DNA from: Candidatus Poribacteria bacterium
GTDB taxonomy: Bacteria > Poribacteria > WGA-4E > WGA-3G
Direction of reading: 5' to 3'
NCBI GenBank assembly: GCA_022394755.1
Contig: JAGFCA010000008.1
Span: 1-64,000, forward strand
Length of the DNA: 64,000 nucleotides
Part shown: positions 35,738 to 45,075 of the stretch, one piece after another
Layout: each line of letters opens with the position of its first letter
Position numbering within the stretch: the first letter of the stretch is position 1
Notes under the pieces: generated by a model
The model's input: only the letters and a program-made list of their open reading frames with translations
Database searches by the model: none
Told to the model about the DNA's origin: nothing
Translations under genes and position numbers: made by a program

Positions 35738-37636
35738 ATGAAAAAAATATATGTCCCTGTTGACAACTCTGATTATTCTGATGCAAGTATTGACTTAGCT
35801 GTGGAATTCGCAAAACACTTTGAATCCCAATTGGTTGGGTCACACGTTTATGCAGCAAAAATGCATGATGTTCGCTTTAAGCAGATGGAGTATACACTTC
35901 CCGAGGAATATCAGGATGAAGTTGAACTGGAAAAACAGCGACGTATACACGACACACTCATTACAATGGGACTCCAACTAATTTCGGATTCCTATCTTGA
36001 GGTAATGAAGAAGAAGTGTGAATTGTTCAATATTCCATTTGAACCACAAATGCCTGAAGGTAAACACTATATTAAACTCGTAGAAGATATCCAAGAAGGC
36101 GAATACGATCTTGTGATTATGGGTGCTCTTGGCATGGGTGCTGTAAAAGATAGCCTAATTGGTGGTGTAACAGAACGTGTTGTTAGACGAATTAACACTG
36201 ATACTCTTGTTGTGCGAAACCTTGACCCAATTGAAGAACAACAAGGAAATATTCTTGTCGGTATTGATGGGAGTCCTGAATCGTTTTCTGGTTTAAAAAC
36301 CGCTATCCAACTCGGTCAAAAGTTCAATAAACAGGTAGAAGCTGTTGGCGTTTATGACCCGTACCTACACTATATTGTTTTTAATTCTGTTGTGAATGTA
36401 CTTACTGAACGTGCCGCAAGAACATTTAGATTTAAAGAACAGGAACAACTCCACGAAGAAGTAATTGATACTGGATTGGCAAAGATATATCAATCCCATT
36501 TAGAAGTCGCACGTTCTATCGCAAAAGAAGAACACGACTATAATTTAAAAATTACCCTCCTTGATGGTAAAGCGTACGAAAAAATAATACAATACACCCG
36601 CAAAACTGAACCGTGGCTTCTCGTCTTAGGACGAATTGGTGTTCATAGTGAACAAGAAATGGATATAGGAAGCACTGCAGAAAATCTACTACGTCTTGCG
36701 CCTTGCAATGTTCTACTATCAAGTCAAAGATATTTTCCACAAATTGATGTAAAAGCAGAAGAAACATTGGTATGGACTCAAGAGGCATTGGACCGTATGG
36801 AGAAAGCCCCTCCTCTGGTACGGGGTATTGCAAAGACTGCTGTTCATCGGTTTGCTATTGAACGCGGACATTCTGTCATTACTGAAAGTGTTATTGACAA
36901 AGCTATGGAAGCTATTATGCCACAACGTGCTTCTGAAAAATTAACACGCGTGGCAAAAGAGATTGCCGAACAGAAAGTTTTGGAATCAGGTGATGTCCAG
37001 ACATATATATGTGGTGAATGTGGGTATGCCGCACATAACCAGCAACCTGTGGTTTGTCCCGTATGCAGTTCTCCTCCAGAACGATTCCAGATGGTTAACA
37101 AAGATTCATTGGACCATATTGCTGTTGATGAAGGAGGTACTGAGGAAGAGGAAACCTTCGATGGTGTCCGTCTACAGTGGTCTGATCAAGCGAAAAAGGC
37201 TTTACGTACTGTGCCACGAGGCTACATGAGACGAAACGTGAAAGCACGAATTGAGAAATCTGCTCGTTCACAAAAAATACATACTATTACTAATGATTTT
37301 GCAACTGAAATAATTGATGAAAGCATGGGTGAAGCAGCAGCTGTACGTGAAGATGCTCCAGAACTTAAAGCCATGCAGACTCAGGATAAATCGCATGATA
37401 CTACAGATACAAACAATTTTGCCAGCACTCTACAGTGGACAGGAGAAGCAATTGAACGATTAAACTTAGTTCCTGAAGGCTTCATGCGGAATATCACTCA
37501 AACCCGTATTGAACAGAGAGCAAATGAAGCAGAAATTATGGAAATCACTCTCGATTTTGCCGCACGCGTTATTGAAGATGGAAGAAGTTTGGCAAATGAA
37601 GTATTAGGTGAGTATTACCAGCAGACACAAGAATAA
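35738..37636 (+). CDS. Tandem universal stress protein fused to rubredoxin-like and three PCP_red domains
   Basis: 632 residues. Order: two universal-stress (UspA) units in about residues 1-335, with MGALGMGAVKDSLIGGVTERV and LGRIGVHSEQEMDIGSTAENLLR resembling the nucleotide-binding loop; a PCP_red domain (344-400); a rubredoxin-like zinc or iron knuckle CGECGY...CPVCSSPPERF (423-455); and two further PCP_red domains (479-530 and 565-620). Each PCP_red copy begins with a W(T/S) motif and has a short helical core (LVWTQEALDRM, LQWSDQAKKAL, LQWTGEAIERL). This combination is unusual. The rubredoxin-like knuckle and PCP_red suggest redox or tetrapyrrole chemistry, and the Usp part a stress signal. 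Confidence 0.82.
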   Translation: MKKIYVPVDNSDYSDASIDLAVEFAKHFESQLVGSHVYAAKMHDVRFKQMEYTLPEEYQDEVELEKQRRIHDTLITMGLQLISDSYLEVMKKKCELFNIPFEPQMPEGKHYIKLVEDIQEGEYDLVIMGALGMGAVKDSLIGGVTERVVRRINTDTLVVRNLDPIEEQQGNILVGIDGSPESFSGLKTAIQLGQKFNKQVEAVGVYDPYLHYIVFNSVVNVLTERAARTFRFKEQEQLHEEVIDTGLAKIYQSHLEVARSIAKEEHDYNLKITLLDGKAYEKIIQYTRKTEPWLLVLGRIGVHSEQEMDIGSTAENLLRLAPCNVLLSSQRYFPQIDVKAEETLVWTQEALDRMEKAPPLVRGIAKTAVHRFAIERGHSVITESVIDKAMEAIMPQRASEKLTRVAKEIAEQKVLESGDVQTYICGECGYAAHNQQPVVCPVCSSPPERFQMVNKDSLDHIAVDEGGTEEEETFDGVRLQWSDQAKKALRTVPRGYMRRNVKARIEKSARSQKIHTITNDFATEIIDESMGEAAAVREDAPELKAMQTQDKSHDTTDTNNFASTLQWTGEAIERLNLVPEGFMRNITQTRIEQRANEAEIMEITLDFAARVIEDGRSLANEVLGEYYQQTQE

Positions 37637-37794
37637 AAAGGTTAGTACTTTTCACTTCCCAGACATGGATTCCTTTAATTCTCAGTATAAACTACTGTTC
37701 AATGATTGAAATTACAATCAAAATTACTTCTAAATCAACCGGTTATCCCAGCTTTAAATAACAGTATCTGCTGTATAAGAATAACAGGACCGAT

Positions 37795-38223
37795 ATGGCT
37801 GATATACCCATTATTACTTTTCAGATCCTCGGTCCAAATGAAGGTGCTGCAGAAGGTTCCACCAAAGGTTTATGGTTTAAAGTAAAATCTGAACCCCCTC
37901 CACAAGATGACCTATTAGTTGCCATAAAAGTATGCTCATCTAATGGAGAAGTAAAACAAACCGGATTTATCATGATTCTAAAACATGAATCCCATTCAGC
38001 AGACTTTTTCTATAAGACTGTCCTCGGTGAGCTTGATGTATGGTTGGAAATTGAACCAGTCTCCTCTCTCCAAAATCTTGAATTTCCACTCATTACAAAT
38101 GAAGGTTATGTTATTGAAGCAGGTTATATAATTACTGAGTACAACATCGGTGATTTATCAAAAATAGTTCCCTTTCAGTGGAACGGTCATGATCGTGGGG
38201 TGTGGACAGATGAAAGTCGTTAA
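37795..38223 (+). CDS. Hypothetical protein, beta-rich
   Basis: 142 residues without signal peptide or membrane helix. Pattern of alternating hydrophobic residues suggests an all-beta domain, perhaps like Calx-beta or fibronectin folds (TFQILGPNEGAAEGSTKGLWFKVKS). No catalytic motif. It stands alone between the Usp/PCP_red gene and the propeller gene, with gaps of 158 and 194 bases. I do not recognise it. Confidence 0.55.
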   Translation: MADIPIITFQILGPNEGAAEGSTKGLWFKVKSEPPPQDDLLVAIKVCSSNGEVKQTGFIMILKHESHSADFFYKTVLGELDVWLEIEPVSSLQNLEFPLITNEGYVIEAGYIITEYNIGDLSKIVPFQWNGHDRGVWTDESR

Positions 38224-38417
38224 TATGACAATTCAGATAGAGAAGCTTGATCTGATGTAGAATACCTACAACCAACCCAACACAAACGTAATTCCTGTAT
38301 AGATACATAGTATGTATAGTTGTTGAGAAAGATGTCAGATTAATAATTTCATTGGTGTTGTAGGATGTTAAAAATCATAAATATCATACAAACTAACTCT
38401 GGTTCCGGAGGAATGTA

Positions 38418-39731
38418 ATGAATAAGAAAATTTGTATTAGTCGAGTAATTACGGTAGTAAGTCTTGTAATCCTCTTTTTCTCAATGACCAGTTGTGCTCC
38501 AGTTATTTTTGATATAGATAACGCTACAAGTAAGAATTGGCATCAGTGGCGAGGACCAAACAATGATGGTGTTAGTAATGCAACCGATGTTCCTACAACT
38601 TGGAGTCAAACAGAAAATGTAAAATGGCGGTTTCCCTTACCTGGAGAAGGTGCATCCACACCTGTTATATGGGATGATAAAATCTTCCTTACATGTGCTG
38701 ATGGTGAGGAACTGGTTCTGATGTGTATTAACACACAAGGTGATGAACTATGGAAACGCACATTAGCAACAGGTAATAGAAGGTCGCGTGGAGATGAAGT
38801 AAATTTCGCTTCACCATCCCCAACAACTGATGGTAAACATGTGTGGGCGTTTTTAGGAAGTGGTGATCTTGTATGTTATGATTATGATGGTAATCAGGTG
38901 TGGAAAACAAACTTGGCTGAACGGTATGGTGAATTCAATCTGTATTTTATTATGTCGACCACTCCACTTCTTTATAAAGACAAACTATACATGCACTTAA
39001 TCCATAGTAGTGCATGGTTAGTTCTGGCACTTGATAAGATGACAGGTGAAGAGATATGGAAACAGAAAAGGAAAAGTGATGCCATACAAGAATCTGAACA
39101 GGCATATACATCACCGATGCTCTATCAAGACGCTGAACGGGAGTTACTGATTGTTCACGGCGCAGACTATGTGACCGCACATAATCTTGATGATGGAAGT
39201 GAAATTTGGCGGTGTGGTGGGTTCAATCCAGTACAAAACTACAACCAATTTTTCCGATTTGTAGCTTCACCTGTTTCAACTGATGGATTAATTGTCGTGC
39301 CATCAGCAAAAAACGGTCCAGTGATTGGAATAGATCCCTCAGGAACTGGTGATATCACAGATACTCAATGGCAAAAATGGAAATTGAGTAGAGGAACTCC
39401 AGATGTACCGTCACCATTAATACATGATGGTTTAGTCTATCTATGTCGCGAAAACGGAGATCTAATTTGTATTGACGCAACAACAGGAGAACAACTTTAT
39501 AGACACCAGACACACCGACATCGACACCGTTCATCTCCTGTTTATGCTAACGGACATATATACCTAACAGCCAGAGATGGTGTTGTAAATGTTGTTAAAG
39601 CCGGCAAGGACTTTGAGATTGTTGCTACAAATAATATTGATGAAGAAATCGCAGCATCTCCTGTAATTTTGGATGGCACGTTATACCTACGTAGTTACAA
39701 TGCGTTGTATGCAATTGGAAAGAATGAGTGA
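38418..39731 (+). CDS. PQQ-like beta-propeller lipoprotein
   Basis: 437 residues. The N-terminal helix ends in a lipobox MTSC, so lipid attachment at Cys is likely. The rest is an eight-bladed PQQ-type propeller: HQWRGPNNDGVS at the start, repeated W-docking units such as GDELWKR, GNQVWKTN, GEEIWKQ and GSEIWRC. Similar proteins include BamB and PQQ dehydrogenases, but catalytic residues of dehydrogenases are not evident. It overlaps the next gene by four bases. Confidence 0.85.
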   Translation: MNKKICISRVITVVSLVILFFSMTSCAPVIFDIDNATSKNWHQWRGPNNDGVSNATDVPTTWSQTENVKWRFPLPGEGASTPVIWDDKIFLTCADGEELVLMCINTQGDELWKRTLATGNRRSRGDEVNFASPSPTTDGKHVWAFLGSGDLVCYDYDGNQVWKTNLAERYGEFNLYFIMSTTPLLYKDKLYMHLIHSSAWLVLALDKMTGEEIWKQKRKSDAIQESEQAYTSPMLYQDAERELLIVHGADYVTAHNLDDGSEIWRCGGFNPVQNYNQFFRFVASPVSTDGLIVVPSAKNGPVIGIDPSGTGDITDTQWQKWKLSRGTPDVPSPLIHDGLVYLCRENGDLICIDATTGEQLYRHQTHRHRHRSSPVYANGHIYLTARDGVVNVVKAGKDFEIVATNNIDEEIAASPVILDGTLYLRSYNALYAIGKNE

Positions 39732-40615
39732 AAAGCTACAAGGAACTCCCCGATGATGCGGGGTCTAACATTGTTGGACAAGTTACAGCACAAGCAAAAA
39801 GAGTAAACCAACGGCTAAGTTCTGTTAAACATACGATAGCAGTTATGAGTGGTAAAGGTGGCGTAGGTAAAAGTGCAGTCACCTCAAATGTGGCAACTGC
39901 ATTGGCTTTGCAAGGGTTTTCTGTAGGTGTCGTTGATGCGGATATTAACGGTCCTACAATTGCCAAAATGATGGGGGTGCGGAAGTCTAAATTAGAATAT
40001 ACTTCGGCAGGGGTTAAACCCGCAATTACATCGCTTGGAATCAAAGTCATCTCTATGGATCTTCTCTTATCTGAAGATGATGCACCAGTATTATGGAACG
40101 CACATTCTCAGAAAGATGCCTTTACTTGGCGGAGTACAATGGAGGTAGGAGCCTTACGAGAATTTATCGGTGATACAGAATGGGAAGAATTAGATTATCT
40201 CCTTCTTGATTTACCTCCAGGTTCAGAACGTTTAGCAAATGTAGTCGAACTTATTCCGTCTCTTAGCGGTGTAGTCGTTGTTACGATTCCGTCAGATGTA
40301 TCACAACTAATTGTAAAGAAGTCTGTAACAATGGCAAGAGATGTTCTAAATGTACCAATTATAGGTGTGGTAGAGAATATGTCGTATTATGTATGTCATC
40401 ATTGTGGTGAAAGTGAACCACTATTTTCAAATGATGACGCTGTTGAGAGTGCTTTCCAATTCACTCTACTTGGTAAAATACCATTTGATCCAAAACTCTC
40501 ACAGTGTAATGATAGTGGAGTACCCTATATTCAACAACACCCAAATAATCAAGCAAGTGAAGCAATTGTTGCGACTGTTGAGAATATCAAGAAATACTTT
40601 AACGCATTATCCTAA
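39728..40615 (+). CDS. Mrp/ApbC-type iron-sulfur carrier ATPase
   Basis: 295-residue P-loop ATPase of the Mrp/NBP35 family that binds and delivers Fe-S clusters. Deviant Walker A MSGKGGVGKSAVTSN near residue 40, DADINGPTIAKMMG, DLPPGSERL, and the cluster-binding CHHCGE near residue 223 (YVCHHCGESEPLF). GTG start overlapping the propeller stop, so translational coupling is likely. Placed among PCP_red and radical SAM proteins, it may mature their clusters. Confidence 0.9.
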   Translation: MKSYKELPDDAGSNIVGQVTAQAKRVNQRLSSVKHTIAVMSGKGGVGKSAVTSNVATALALQGFSVGVVDADINGPTIAKMMGVRKSKLEYTSAGVKPAITSLGIKVISMDLLLSEDDAPVLWNAHSQKDAFTWRSTMEVGALREFIGDTEWEELDYLLLDLPPGSERLANVVELIPSLSGVVVVTIPSDVSQLIVKKSVTMARDVLNVPIIGVVENMSYYVCHHCGESEPLFSNDDAVESAFQFTLLGKIPFDPKLSQCNDSGVPYIQQHPNNQASEAIVATVENIKKYFNALS

Positions 40616-40662
40616 TTTGTGAATGAACAAGAGTTCTCCTAAAACTTTAATGGAGATAGTAA

Positions 40663-41187
40663 ATGAAATTCCTATGTATAGAATGTGAAACTGCAATGAA
40701 ATTTAAGGATGTAACCCGTCCTGAACAGGGATCTGTCACGGCTGTTTTCGAATGTCCAGACTGTTTTACTGAAATTGCTATGTTCCTAAATCCATCTGAA
40801 ACACAAATGCTAAAATCGTTGGATTTAAAACTTGGTGGAACCAATGAGACTGCACAACCGATGCAGATGGTACGTTCCCAATTACAAACAGGTAAAGAAG
40901 ATTCAGTACCAAATATTACATCTCAAATAGAGGGTAGTGAAACAGCTGAAGGAGGAAAGTGTCCTTTCACCTCCGTAATATCTGAAGCCTACGAAGAGGA
41001 ATCCGAACCCGAAACTGATGGTCTCTCATGGACACAAGACGCATTAGAACGTTTAGAACGTATACCTTCATTTGTCCGCCCAATGGCTAAAATGGGGATT
41101 GAAAGTTACGCAAAAGATAACGGACATACAGAGATCAATGCAGAGGTAATGGATCAAGCACGTGGAAACTTCCCAGCACAGTTCTAA
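40663..41187 (+). CDS. Zinc-ribbon protein with C-terminal PCP_red domain
   Basis: 174 residues. The N-terminal part has two Cys pairs, CIEC and CPDC (residues about 5-8 and 35-38), a rubredoxin-like or zinc knuckle; a further GGKCPF lies near residue 94. Residues 121-174 form a PCP_red domain with LSWTQDALERLERIPSFVRP, one of the clearest copies in the window. Soluble. GGAG ribosome site. It follows the Mrp gene and belongs to the PCP_red neighbourhood. Confidence 0.8.
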   Translation: MKFLCIECETAMKFKDVTRPEQGSVTAVFECPDCFTEIAMFLNPSETQMLKSLDLKLGGTNETAQPMQMVRSQLQTGKEDSVPNITSQIEGSETAEGGKCPFTSVISEAYEEESEPETDGLSWTQDALERLERIPSFVRPMAKMGIESYAKDNGHTEINAEVMDQARGNFPAQF

Positions 41188-41300
41188 TCTGATCAAATTG
41201 GTTGATTGAGTCCCTGTATACAAGTTATAATTTGAACACTGGAAAAATGTCAAATTAGTAACCTTTATTCCTAATATATTCAATATCAGGAGGATTATCA

Positions 41301-41975
41301 ATGGTGGATTACGGAGAAAAGAAAAACCTCACCTACGCCCCTACAGATATATTATATCCTGAAGATGATGGAAAACCGATGGCTGCAGGCGATCTACACA
41401 GAAGTCAGTTAATCAGGACATTACACGTTATTGAAGCATACTATGCCTCTGATCCAATGGTCTATGTTTCAGGTGATTTATTCATATATTACGAAGAGGG
41501 TGTACCATCTAAGTCTATATCCCCTGATGTTTTGGTTTCTTTCGGTGTAGGTATGAAGCAACGTAGGACTTACAAAGTATGGGAAGAAGGGAAAACACCA
41601 GAGTTTGTGATGGAGTTCAGTAGTAAGAACACTTTTGAAAAAGACTTAACTGAAAAGATTGAGATTTATGAATCTCTAAGTATACAAAATTATTTCCTCT
41701 ATGATGCTGAAGATCTATACCTGCCATCACAACTGATGGGGTATGAGTTAATAGATGGCAATTATGTTGATTTACCCTGTAATGAGAACGGTATCCATGC
41801 TTCGTCAATTGGGTTAGCTTTCCAAGTATTGGATGATGGATTAGGTATCTATAATCCTTCAACGGGTGAATTGTTACAAACACCTGTAGAACGGGAAGCA
41901 AAGCGAGCTGATAGTGCAGAAGCAGAAGTTGCTCAACTTAGAGAACAGGTTGCTCGAATGCAATCACAATCTTAA
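41301..41975 (+). CDS. Uma2 (DUF820) family PD-(D/E)XK nuclease-like protein
   Basis: 224 residues. The Uma2 fold is shown by YVSGDLFIYYEEG, SISPDVLVSFGVG and PEFVMEFSSKNT, in which Asp, Glu and the Ser-Ser-Lys region fit the PD-(D/E)XK pattern. The C-terminal 30 residues form a short coiled coil (AKRADSAEAEVAQLREQVAR), as in many Uma2 proteins of cyanobacteria and Planctomycetes. Function in cells is unknown. Good AGGAGG ribosome site. Confidence 0.88.
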   Translation: MVDYGEKKNLTYAPTDILYPEDDGKPMAAGDLHRSQLIRTLHVIEAYYASDPMVYVSGDLFIYYEEGVPSKSISPDVLVSFGVGMKQRRTYKVWEEGKTPEFVMEFSSKNTFEKDLTEKIEIYESLSIQNYFLYDAEDLYLPSQLMGYELIDGNYVDLPCNENGIHASSIGLAFQVLDDGLGIYNPSTGELLQTPVEREAKRADSAEAEVAQLREQVARMQSQS

Positions 41976-42039
41976 TTTGTTTCAACAAACTTGTAAGTAT
42001 GACATCTTATATAATGATGGATAAACTGATTAACAAGCG

Positions 42040-42498
42040 ATGCGTACGATAGTAGAACTCTCAATCAGATATATTCATCTAACTTCAGCAATAGTTTGGT
42101 TCGGAGGAGTTTTCTTTACGACAATAATTACAATACCTATAGTCCGTGGAAACTTAGATTCACAAGACCTGCTTAAAATACACAATCGATTTCGCGGTAT
42201 CATCTCTTTGATGATACACATTCTATATACAACAGGCGCGATCGTTGTCTTTATCGTTGCTTGGAACAACGATATGAAATTAAATGCAGAGTATATGATT
42301 ATCTCAGGGGCAAAATTAGCGGCATTCGGATTAATGGCTCTGTTTTGGGGTTTATACAGTTCACTATATCGTAAAAAACTTGAAGTCGCACCACCGAATA
42401 GTAATATTAACATACCTACACATATCAATCTTTTTGGTTATTTAACACTTTTTTCAGGAATAATTGTGATCGCACTTGCTTTACTATTAAGAATCTAA
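42040..42498 (+). CDS. Four-helix membrane protein, HemJ/CopD-like
   Basis: 152 residues with four predicted helices. The first, SIRYIHLTSAIVWFGGVFF, has the His-x6-Trp-x-Gly pattern found in CopD proteins and in the protoporphyrinogen oxidase HemJ, and length and topology match HemJ. Other membrane-near His residues (IHNRF, MIHILY, PTHINLFG) could bind haem or copper. It ends directly before the radical SAM gene, so the pair is surely co-expressed. Haem-linked or copper-linked function is an inference. Confidence 0.55.
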   Translation: MRTIVELSIRYIHLTSAIVWFGGVFFTTIITIPIVRGNLDSQDLLKIHNRFRGIISLMIHILYTTGAIVVFIVAWNNDMKLNAEYMIISGAKLAAFGLMALFWGLYSSLYRKKLEVAPPNSNINIPTHINLFGYLTLFSGIIVIALALLLRI

Positions 42499-43800
42499 AT
42501 GGAAAAAACTAAAGTTCAGGCTGTCTCATGGAATATAACTCGGTTGTGTAACCTTAAATGTACACACTGCTATCTTCCCGCAGGATTCGTAGATACAGAA
42601 GAATTTCCTCAAGGATACATTAGAGATACCGAATTAACACAATCACAGTGTTTTCGTGTAATTGATGAAATCGCAGAAATCAATCCAAACATTCTCCTAA
42701 TCCTCACAGGAGGAGAACCGTTATTACGACCTGATATTCTGGAAATCTCAAAATACGCTTCAGACACAGGATTTCTTGTGGTAATGGGTACAAACGGTGT
42801 TTTGCTCAATGACGAAGTCGTTGAAAAAATGCAACATAGCGGTGTTACAGGAGCAGGTTTAAGTATTGATTCAATACAACCTACTGATCACGACAAGTTT
42901 CGTGGTATGGAAGGGGCATGGCAGGCAACGATGGATGGTGTTGAAGCACTCAAACGGGCAAAGCTTGATTTCCTTGTACAGACTTCGGTTACACAATGGA
43001 ATTACGATGAAATTCCCCAGATTGTGGAATACGCATATCAGTTAGGTGCAAAAGTGCTCAATCTCTATTTTCTTGTTCGAACCGGTAGAGGGAAAACTGT
43101 TATGGACATTACTCCTACACAATATGAGAAAATGTTAGAGACCATGTTCCAATTACAGTCAAAATATAGTGGAAAAATGTTAATCGCAGCAAAATGTGCC
43201 CCACATTACAAACGAGTTATTTATGAACAGCAGTCCGACTCCGCATTCCTTCAAGGATATCCCAGTGGAACATGTCCATGCGGTATCTACTATTGTCGCA
43301 TTAGTCCTGAAGGAGAACTAACACCATGTCCATATTTACCTGTGAGTGTCGGTAATCTAAAAGATGAAAGTTTCGTCAAACTTTGGAATGAATCTGAAAC
43401 CTTTCACGATTTGAGAGATCGAAATAGACTTGAAGGAAAGTGTGGTGCTTGTGAATTTAAAGAGGTGTGTGGAGGCTGTAGAGCTCGTGCCTATGCAACT
43501 ACAGAGAATTATCTCGCAGCTGATGAATCTTGTGAGTATCAACCTGGACAAGAAAAACAACCGATTCAATTCGAAAAACGGACTGCCTTTGCATCAGAAC
43601 CCGATTACGATCTCACATGGAATGATGCTGCTGAGAAAAGACTAAAACGTGTGCCATCATTTGCACGAGGAATGGTTATTAAGAGTGTTGAAAAATACGC
43701 ACGTGAAAACGGATATCAGGAAATTACTCCTGAACTTATGCAGGCAGTCAAAAAGCGGTTTGATAAAACAGGAATTCCCTCTTTTAGACCACGACGTTAG
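42499..43800 (+). CDS. Radical SAM/SPASM protein with C-terminal PCP_red domain
   Basis: 433 residues. The radical SAM cluster motif CNLKCTHCY lies at residues 14-22, with LTGGEPLLRPD following. The C-terminal SPASM region binds extra [4Fe-4S] clusters: CPCGIYYCRISPEGELTPCPY and CGACEFKEVCGGCRARAYA. Residues 372-433 are a PCP_red domain (LTWNDAAEKRLKRVPSFARG). The SAM/SPASM part resembles the haem-maturation enzymes AhbD and NirJ, so a tetrapyrrole substrate is possible, but peptide-modifying SPASM enzymes also fit. Directly abuts the HemJ/CopD-like gene. Confidence 0.88.
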   Translation: MEKTKVQAVSWNITRLCNLKCTHCYLPAGFVDTEEFPQGYIRDTELTQSQCFRVIDEIAEINPNILLILTGGEPLLRPDILEISKYASDTGFLVVMGTNGVLLNDEVVEKMQHSGVTGAGLSIDSIQPTDHDKFRGMEGAWQATMDGVEALKRAKLDFLVQTSVTQWNYDEIPQIVEYAYQLGAKVLNLYFLVRTGRGKTVMDITPTQYEKMLETMFQLQSKYSGKMLIAAKCAPHYKRVIYEQQSDSAFLQGYPSGTCPCGIYYCRISPEGELTPCPYLPVSVGNLKDESFVKLWNESETFHDLRDRNRLEGKCGACEFKEVCGGCRARAYATTENYLAADESCEYQPGQEKQPIQFEKRTAFASEPDYDLTWNDAAEKRLKRVPSFARGMVIKSVEKYARENGYQEITPELMQAVKKRFDKTGIPSFRPRR

Positions 43801-43854
43801 CATAGTGAGACAAATCAAAGACAGACGTTGACTAAAATTGTTGAGGTACATTGA

Positions 43855-44574
43855 ATGCTATCACCAGATCAAATTTCATCTTTCCAAGAAGATGGATATC
43901 TTATACTTGAAAATCTTATAGATACAGATATAATTAACGGATGGAGAGAACAAATTTGGAAGCATTTTGATTCCAGTTTGGAAACTCCTGAGTCTTGGCC
44001 TGATAATTACGTCGTTGAGAACTTCGGTTTCTCACCACTATTTGGTCAATTACCGGCAATGCAAGAGATTATTGAACAATTAGGTGGAGGACACTTTGCA
44101 GGCGGCGGTGGATCACCCTTAGTGAAATGGCCAAATAAGGATGATGAATGGTCTATGCCGGGGAGTGGACATATTGATGCATATGGTCCAGGTGGTTGGA
44201 GTCCGTTTATGATGGGAGCAACAACCTATCTCTATGATGTTGAACCGAGTGGTGGAGCATTCGTATTTTGGCCAAAAAGTCATCATACCACACACGAATA
44301 CTTCCTTAAATATCCTGAACAAGTAGACGGAAGTTTTAGGGATATTGAAGGATGGGGATGGCATCTCTTCTCAGATTCATCACCAGAGGGACCACGCGAG
44401 TTTATTGGGGCTGCTGGCGATGTTGTTCTGTGGCACGCATATTTATGCCATACGGGTTCTGGGAATATCAATGACATACCTCGTGTTGGTATATTTGCAC
44501 GGTACCACCATAAACAACGAGAGGAAATTCGGTATGAAATACCTGAAGACCTTTGGAAATACTGGGTTATTTAA
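43855..44574 (+). CDS. Phytanoyl-CoA dioxygenase (PhyH) family protein
   Basis: 239-residue Fe(II)/2-oxoglutarate-dependent oxygenase. Iron ligands: HIDAYGPGG (His-x-Asp) near residue 103 and the distal His in VVLWHAYLCHTGSGN near residue 193; an Arg in VGIFARYHH could bind 2-oxoglutarate. It starts with the family pattern QISSFQEDGYLILENLID. PhyH proteins are numerous in Poribacteria; their substrates are mostly unknown. The next gene begins ten bases on. Confidence 0.92.
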   Translation: MLSPDQISSFQEDGYLILENLIDTDIINGWREQIWKHFDSSLETPESWPDNYVVENFGFSPLFGQLPAMQEIIEQLGGGHFAGGGGSPLVKWPNKDDEWSMPGSGHIDAYGPGGWSPFMMGATTYLYDVEPSGGAFVFWPKSHHTTHEYFLKYPEQVDGSFRDIEGWGWHLFSDSSPEGPREFIGAAGDVVLWHAYLCHTGSGNINDIPRVGIFARYHHKQREEIRYEIPEDLWKYWVI

Positions 44575-44583
44575 GGAGTAAGT

Positions 44584-45075
44584 ATGAGTGAGCAAAACAA
44601 GGTTCAAGAACGACTCACAAATGTTGAAGATAGATTAGAACGGTTAGAAACACTTTTGACAAGTATAAATGACAAGTTGGAACAACCATCGCAATCTGCA
44701 GTTGCTGATGGTCGCGAAAGTACTGAACAATTCCAACAATGGGTCACTGACTATGTATCTATGCGACTACAACAATTAGTCCCAGAGACATGTGATCATC
44801 CTGCCGAAACGCCAAAGGTTGATGGTCCATTTCTTGATAATACTAATGTTCCATGTACCGAAGAAGTAGTACATAGAGTTAAACGTATTCCGATTCCTTT
44901 TGTCAGAGAGATGGTAGTTCAACGTGTAGCAGAAAACGCACGTTCGGCTGAAATTGAACGTGTGGATATAGATTTCTTTGAAGAGGCAGCCACATTCTGA
45001 CAATGTAAAGCCACAGAGGAGTTCCCTCTGCCCGACTTCGATTGGAAGGACTTCTTGAAGGCTCCAAATTTTTAA
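44584..45075 (+). CDS. Small coiled-coil PCP_red protein, predicted selenoprotein
   Basis: 163 residues if TGA 44998-45000 is read as selenocysteine; 138 residues otherwise. An N-terminal coiled coil (residues 3-40, VQERLTNVEDRLERLETLL) precedes a linker and a PCP_red domain (89-138, EEVVHRVKRIPIPFVREMV). The frame continues after the TGA for 24 codons, with CAA TGT next, giving a Sec139-Gln-Cys141 motif and the plausible tail PLPDFDWKDFLKAPNF, ending at TAA 45073. A six-bp hairpin with G in its loop lies 13 bases after the TGA. UxC motifs are typical of redox selenoproteins. I know of no described PCP_red selenoprotein. If the TGA is a stop, the shorter protein is still a normal PCP_red protein. 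Confidence 0.72.
45014..45030 (+). promoter_or_regulatory. Putative bacterial SECIS hairpin after the PCP_red TGA
   Basis: Stem cagagg (45014-45019) / cctctg (45025-45030) with loop agttc, whose second base is G. The loop starts 20 bases after the TGA. Geometry and loop G match bacterial SECIS elements and the hairpin at 1676-1692. Reading it as a terminator is weaker: no T-run follows. Confidence 0.55.

Follow-up and report, generated by a model that had tools for sequence, protein, structure and literature searches.

A probable selenoprotein family with a PCP_red-like domain and a C-terminal Sec-x-Cys motif in Poribacteria and further phyla

The locus, its protein and its neighbours

The window, i.e. 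the whole stretch of DNA analysed, covers 64,000 nucleotides of contig JAGFCA010000008.1 from a 5.2 Mb Candidatus Poribacteria genome. The parts described between 39728 and 45075 lie on its forward strand. A frame of 163 codons at 44584–45075, closed by the stop TAA (45073–45075), aligns over its full length with homologues from 68 Poribacteria genomes and from other phyla, and is crossed at 44998–45000 by a TGA predicted to be read as selenocysteine (Sec, U139). The 24-codon tail that follows (45001–45072) begins with Gln-Cys, C141 being encoded at 45004–45006. The earlier note had described CAA TGT and 22 further sense codons running to the TAA, and a hairpin located 13 nt 3′ of the TGA, with G in the second place of its agttc loop. 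Both descriptions are exact, the hairpin being CAGAGG-agttc-CCTCTG at 45014–45030. An open tail of 24 codons alone is not rare by chance; the signal beyond chance is that TGA, tail and hairpin are all conserved, both among 67 Poribacteria genes aligned by codon and among 40-odd genes from other phyla.

The predicted product has 163 residues. From the N-terminus it would consist of a helical stretch, the C-x-H...C region, a helical domain that is PCP_red-like, the U139-Q-C141 motif and the tail. The PCP_red-like domain spans residues 94–135 (44863–44988). Pfam PF08369 is matched by all 25 family members scanned (E ≤ 0.1, best 1.2e-6). The PCP_red label of the earlier note is right, though weak for the member in the window, which scores 22.2 bits, short of the gathering score of 32.5. 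The protein is PCP_red-like, and strict PF08369 membership is not claimed. PF08369 is the C-terminal domain of the protochlorophyllide reductase subunit BchB, represented by PDB entries 2kru and 2l09. A sequence search of the PDB gave no homologue and mostly coiled-coil noise. For a structure model of residues 49–163 (pLDDT 62), the top two PDB fold matches are the PCP_red-type NMR structures 2l09 and 2kru, with E values of 0.07 and 0.18 that are not significant. No active-site geometry is claimed, since the AlphaFold models are of low confidence. In an alignment of 25 members from four phyla, C70 and H72 (C-x-H) and C91, encoded within 44791–44856, are invariant, together with the motif RIPIPFVR, U139, Q140 and C141. 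C70, H72 and C91 are possible partners of U139 and C141. Among other relatives Q140 varies, with UPC in genome G454 and UAC in G479 and G480.

Upstream of the Sec gene, a radical SAM/SPASM protein with a C-terminal PCP_red domain is encoded at 42499–43800; it most resembles the models for haem b synthase and NirJ2, with scores under their cut-offs. A gene for a PhyH-type dioxygenase (43855–44574) lies between the radical SAM and Sec genes in the family of the window and is absent from the examined loci of Poribacteria families f2 and f3. In these two families, as well as in the phylum of genome G178, the radical SAM gene adjoins the Sec gene. Other neighbours, at 39728–42498, are kept in many Poribacteria loci, namely an Mrp-type P-loop NTPase (39728), a small PCP_red protein (40663) and a CopD/UPF0093-like membrane protein (42040), with a Uma2 gene (41301) in some. 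The six PCP_red matches found are all those of the genome, and they cluster within 8.2 kb (window 36773–44988), distributed among a Usp protein with three such domains, the small protein, the radical SAM protein and the Sec protein. The Usp protein, at 35738, carries a rubredoxin-like motif in addition to its three PCP_red domains. Haem-copper oxidase genes lie beside this cluster, and SCO1, COX3, a COX4-type subunit and a UbiA-type prenyltransferase are encoded in the region. Near the Sec gene of G181 there is a gene for a MauG-type di-haem peroxidase, the two being separated by one small gene. The examined Methylomirabilota-like loci, which belong to the largest non-poribacterial group, share no such haem or radical SAM neighbours, and for this reason a haem or respiratory role is considered a lead and not a result.

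A second site with TGA and hairpin had been mentioned earlier as mutual support. It most likely corresponds to TGA 1657–1659 (GMT[U]AGC, in an HMA domain), where the TGA is kept in about 60 Poribacteria genomes, while a few f3 genomes have no stop. The frame at 208–1827 is a second candidate selenoprotein in the window, a PSCyt1/WD40 protein with a C-terminal HMA domain, for which the hairpin is AAGUGC-AGGAU-GCACUU. Its nearest NCBIfam model, below cut-off, is the metal-binding selenoprotein NF041115. Furthermore, Poribacteria contain small stand-alone HMA-type frames of about 110–150 aa, each crossed by a single in-frame TGA and frequently arranged as adjacent pairs. Examples are G068:C67:240-940, G029:C1:1731691-1732340 and G083:C1:619300-620186.

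Conservation in Poribacteria and in further phyla

Of the 85 Poribacteria genomes, all of which were searched, 68 have a homologue, in every case with the in-frame TGA (68/68); none of the 68 has Cys at the Sec position. Matches among named records are all to Candidatus Poribacteria or uncultured Poribacteria, save one. This one, in Rhodospirillales (L076), was rejected, since an unrelated protein there matches LPDFDWKDF by chance. Genome G055 has two copies that are damaged or fragmentary (L112 and L115), both at the end of a contig and each with an extra TAA or TAG 3′ of the TGA.

In the 67 codon-aligned Poribacteria genes, the TGA is present in every gene, and U139 and C141 are invariant. 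All-pair dN/dS is 0.10 in the N-terminal body, 0.031 in the PCP_red-like part, 0.074 in the hairpin codons and 0.027 in the remaining tail, ratios that are rough because dS approaches saturation everywhere but in the hairpin. As judged from this alignment, the tail, which the earlier note thought to look like coding sequence, is under protein-level purifying selection, with dN/dS of about 0.03–0.08. Homologues that stop at the TGA and lack a conserved tail, or a loss of purifying selection downstream, had been named as observations that would refute the Sec reading; homologues do not end there, and selection continues past the TGA.

Synonymous diversity (pS) is about 0.71 throughout these genes and falls to 0.39 in the hairpin codons. 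The two Glu codons of the hairpin are GAG in 132 of 132 cases, compared with 484 of 1216 in the body; its Pro codon is CCT in 67/67 and its Leu codon CTG in 65/67. At the next Pro codon, beyond the stem, all four codons are in use. Low dN/dS combined with a synonymous suppression confined to the hairpin codons indicates that the stretch is selected as protein and the hairpin additionally as RNA.

Outside Poribacteria, a profile search of 387 relatives led to four genomes in three families, all with the TGA. In the three further phyla, the Sec gene occurs in 2/4, 4/5 and 44/95 of the genomes searched, with TGA at the Sec site in 2/2, 4/4 and 43/44, respectively. The motif around the site is [A/S]ATF-U-x-C or a close variant throughout, with the exception of G441. 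In total, the family is present in over a hundred genomes of at least four phyla. In the tree, Poribacteria form one clade (100/99), and so does family f94 of the 95-genome phylum (98/93). This phylum is probably Methylomirabilota. Its family f199 includes pmoA-bearing genomes, of which one is closed (2.8 Mb), and f94 has large genomes and a GC of 0.705 in the single locus measured, as in Rokubacteria.

The sole homologue without TGA, in G441 (L165, G441:C66), has TTA (Leu) at the Sec site, while its tail and hairpin are intact. Either a mutation or an assembly error would account for it; its close relative G437 (L162) has TGA at this position. The forecast that relatives with Cys-x-Cys would be found was not borne out in the genomes searched, and no Cys form appeared in the genomes of the four phyla or in the wider profile searches. 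Weaker stop-free matches of the wider searches were rejected as Cys forms, being mostly PCP_red regions of longer proteins.

A divergent subfamily is present in G480 and G479 (L182 and L183). It ends in AASY[U]ACRAQ(S/P)GA and has lost most of the tail, while U-x-C and a hairpin are kept. In both, a second TGA lies inside the hairpin loop and would terminate the protein nine residues past Sec.

The hairpin and the decoding machinery

The putative bacterial SECIS hairpin (45014–45030) has a stem formed by 45014–45019 with 45025–45030 and the loop AGUUC at 45020–45024; it is supported by pairing, by compensatory changes between phyla and by synonymous suppression. Pairing is present in 99.3% of cells in Poribacteria. 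Stem columns are homologous and gap-free between Poribacteria and two other phyla, and across 86 distinct sequences the six inner base pairs are intact in 99.6% of cells. At columns 20/30 Poribacteria have A-U and the others G-C, columns 21/29 are G-C versus G-U or A-U, and columns 18/32 are A-U, G-U or G-C. Covariation across groups was reached by none of 500 shuffles, and the slight excess within groups by 24 of 500. Because the latter is slight, the argument from RNA relies on the changes between phyla and on the suppression of synonymous change. The loop sequences are AGUUC/U and AGGAU, the stem in the G181 phylum is CUGAGG/CCUCAG, and the divergent G479 and G480 have CGGGAG-CGUGA-CUCCCG.

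Published limits for bacterial SECIS elements are a loop of 3–9 nt, a stem of 4–16 bp, G in the first two loop positions, a spacing of 16–37 nt and MFE ≤ -7.5 (PMC13188914). The hairpin lies within all of them: its loop has 5 nt with G second, its stem has 6 bp, the UGA is 19 nt away, and the energy of the consensus is -8.7 kcal/mol. The single-sequence folding energy of the region is unremarkable (z = -1.15), and the Rfam search gave no match to a SECIS-type family. An extension of the lower stem (CAAU...AUUG) was rejected, as it does not exceed shuffles.

The lack of selB and selC had also been named in advance as evidence against Sec, and both were found in the genome of the window. Its tRNA-Sec (selC) scores 78.5 bits against a gathering score of 47, full-length SelB scores 373 bits, and the two genes are about 60 bp apart on one contig. 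The evidence on these genes covers Poribacteria, where SelB is present in 76/85 genomes and in 63 of the 68 bearing the Sec PCP_red-like gene, the remaining five being at most 83% complete. TGA also serves as a terminal stop: it closes the tail itself in nine relatives, and 10 of the 48 long ORFs of the window, in a mechanical count that takes in the second candidate Sec site at 1657. The codon accordingly serves in both roles and has undergone no global reassignment.

Interpretation and comparison with known selenoproteins

We hold with high confidence that TGA 44998 is read as Sec, in a selenoprotein family of at least four phyla, a judgement that excludes the function. The tRNA-Sec and SelB would decode the codon, and the hairpin would direct decoding as a bacterial SECIS element. 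The computational analysis establishes the conservation of the TGA, tail and hairpin, together with the decoding machinery in Poribacteria. Points counted against this reading are that the evidence for it is at the level of sequence, that single-sequence folding is not significant, that covariation within groups is slight, that one homologue has Leu, and that there is no Cys form, which is unusual for selenoproteins.

A coding and conserved tail would be explained equally by programmed read-through, in which the UGA is misread by a near-cognate tRNA carrying Trp, Arg or Cys, short and long forms are made, and the hairpin only stimulates the process. UGA followed by C is indeed a leaky context. 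However, TAA or TAG never occupies the TGA position, although the tail has homologues in over a hundred genomes; moreover, the genome has selC and selB, loop, stem and spacing of the hairpin agree with the SECIS rules, and the Cys two places after the recoded residue is invariant, all of which make read-through very improbable. Standard annotation would simply end the protein at the TGA, after residue 138, by which point the PCP_red-like domain is complete, and downstream conservation would then belong to another element. We give this possibility next to no credence, as the codons downstream evolve as protein (dN/dS 0.03–0.08) and are conserved in the same frame over phyla to a common end.

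Concerning function, U-x-C can reasonably be regarded as a redox motif. From the neighbourhood and the motif, we propose tentatively that Sec-x-Cys with C70, H72 and C91 forms a redox or metal-thiol centre for the maturation of haem or respiratory enzymes, possibly with the radical SAM protein. A serious contender, if somewhat short of probable, is that the Sec reading holds for a protein unrelated to haem, dealing with soft metals (Hg, Cu, As) or general thiol-redox, and that the proximity of haem genes is incidental. The unconserved neighbourhood in the largest non-poribacterial group agrees with it, as do the PCP_red score of the window member below the Pfam cut-off and the set of C-x-H, C and U-x-C, which could bind soft metals. 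On the other side, PCP_red is matched by every member scanned (25/25), a haem-synthase-like radical SAM enzyme stands beside the gene in two phyla, and a MauG-type di-haem peroxidase is near it in a third. That the family is Sec-obligate, setting a Sec-x-Cys centre on a scaffold of tetrapyrrole-enzyme type (PCP_red-like), with Sec in at least four phyla, no functional Cys form and a hitherto undescribed Se-dependent step of haem or respiratory maturation with a radical SAM partner, is a composite proposal that we consider unlikely to hold in full.

We conclude that this is very likely a real new selenoprotein family, decoded by the mechanism standard in bacteria. If so, a selenoprotein family of over a hundred genomes is added, which homology-based selenoprotein finders may miss, and gene calls ending at a TGA like that at 44998 give truncated proteins in the phyla that carry it. 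It also raises the testable question of why Sec, and not Cys, has been kept over such distances. The authors of deep-Sep state that selenoproteins without Cys homologues may not be identified correctly by their method (PMC12013277).

The earlier note knew of no described PCP_red selenoprotein, and the family is likewise not in the inventory of May 2026, which lists 119 prokaryotic selenoprotein families (PMC13188914 Table 1); the groundwater MAG survey that is its reference 66 may include the family unnamed. Among the NCBIfam release 20 families matched by the 25 members at E up to 0.1, there is no selenoprotein model. Within the text covered by the literature searches, selenoprotein combined with Poribacteria or with PCP_red gave no match, and combined with Rokubacteria or Methylomirabilis it gave unrelated titles. 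Compared with PCP_red (PF08369), the likeness consists in the weak profile match of 25/25 members and in the top two PDB fold matches, the latter not significant by E value; the Sec protein carries in addition a helical N-terminal part, the C-x-H...C region and the Sec-x-Cys tail, and has no BchB enzyme body. The U-x-C spacing is shared with thioredoxin-like Sec.2 (PF13192) and the SO_0444 family Cu/Zn efflux transporter (NF033936; PMC13188914 Table 1), whereas Sec PCP_red-like members match neither model. Nearly all listed selenoprotein families have Cys homologues (PMC13188914), while for this unlisted family none was found in the genomes and profile searches described above. With the SelB/bSECIS selenoproteins of that inventory it shares the in-frame UGA, a hairpin 19 nt downstream whose loop has G among its first two positions, tRNA-Sec and SelB, and a redox-type Sec motif.
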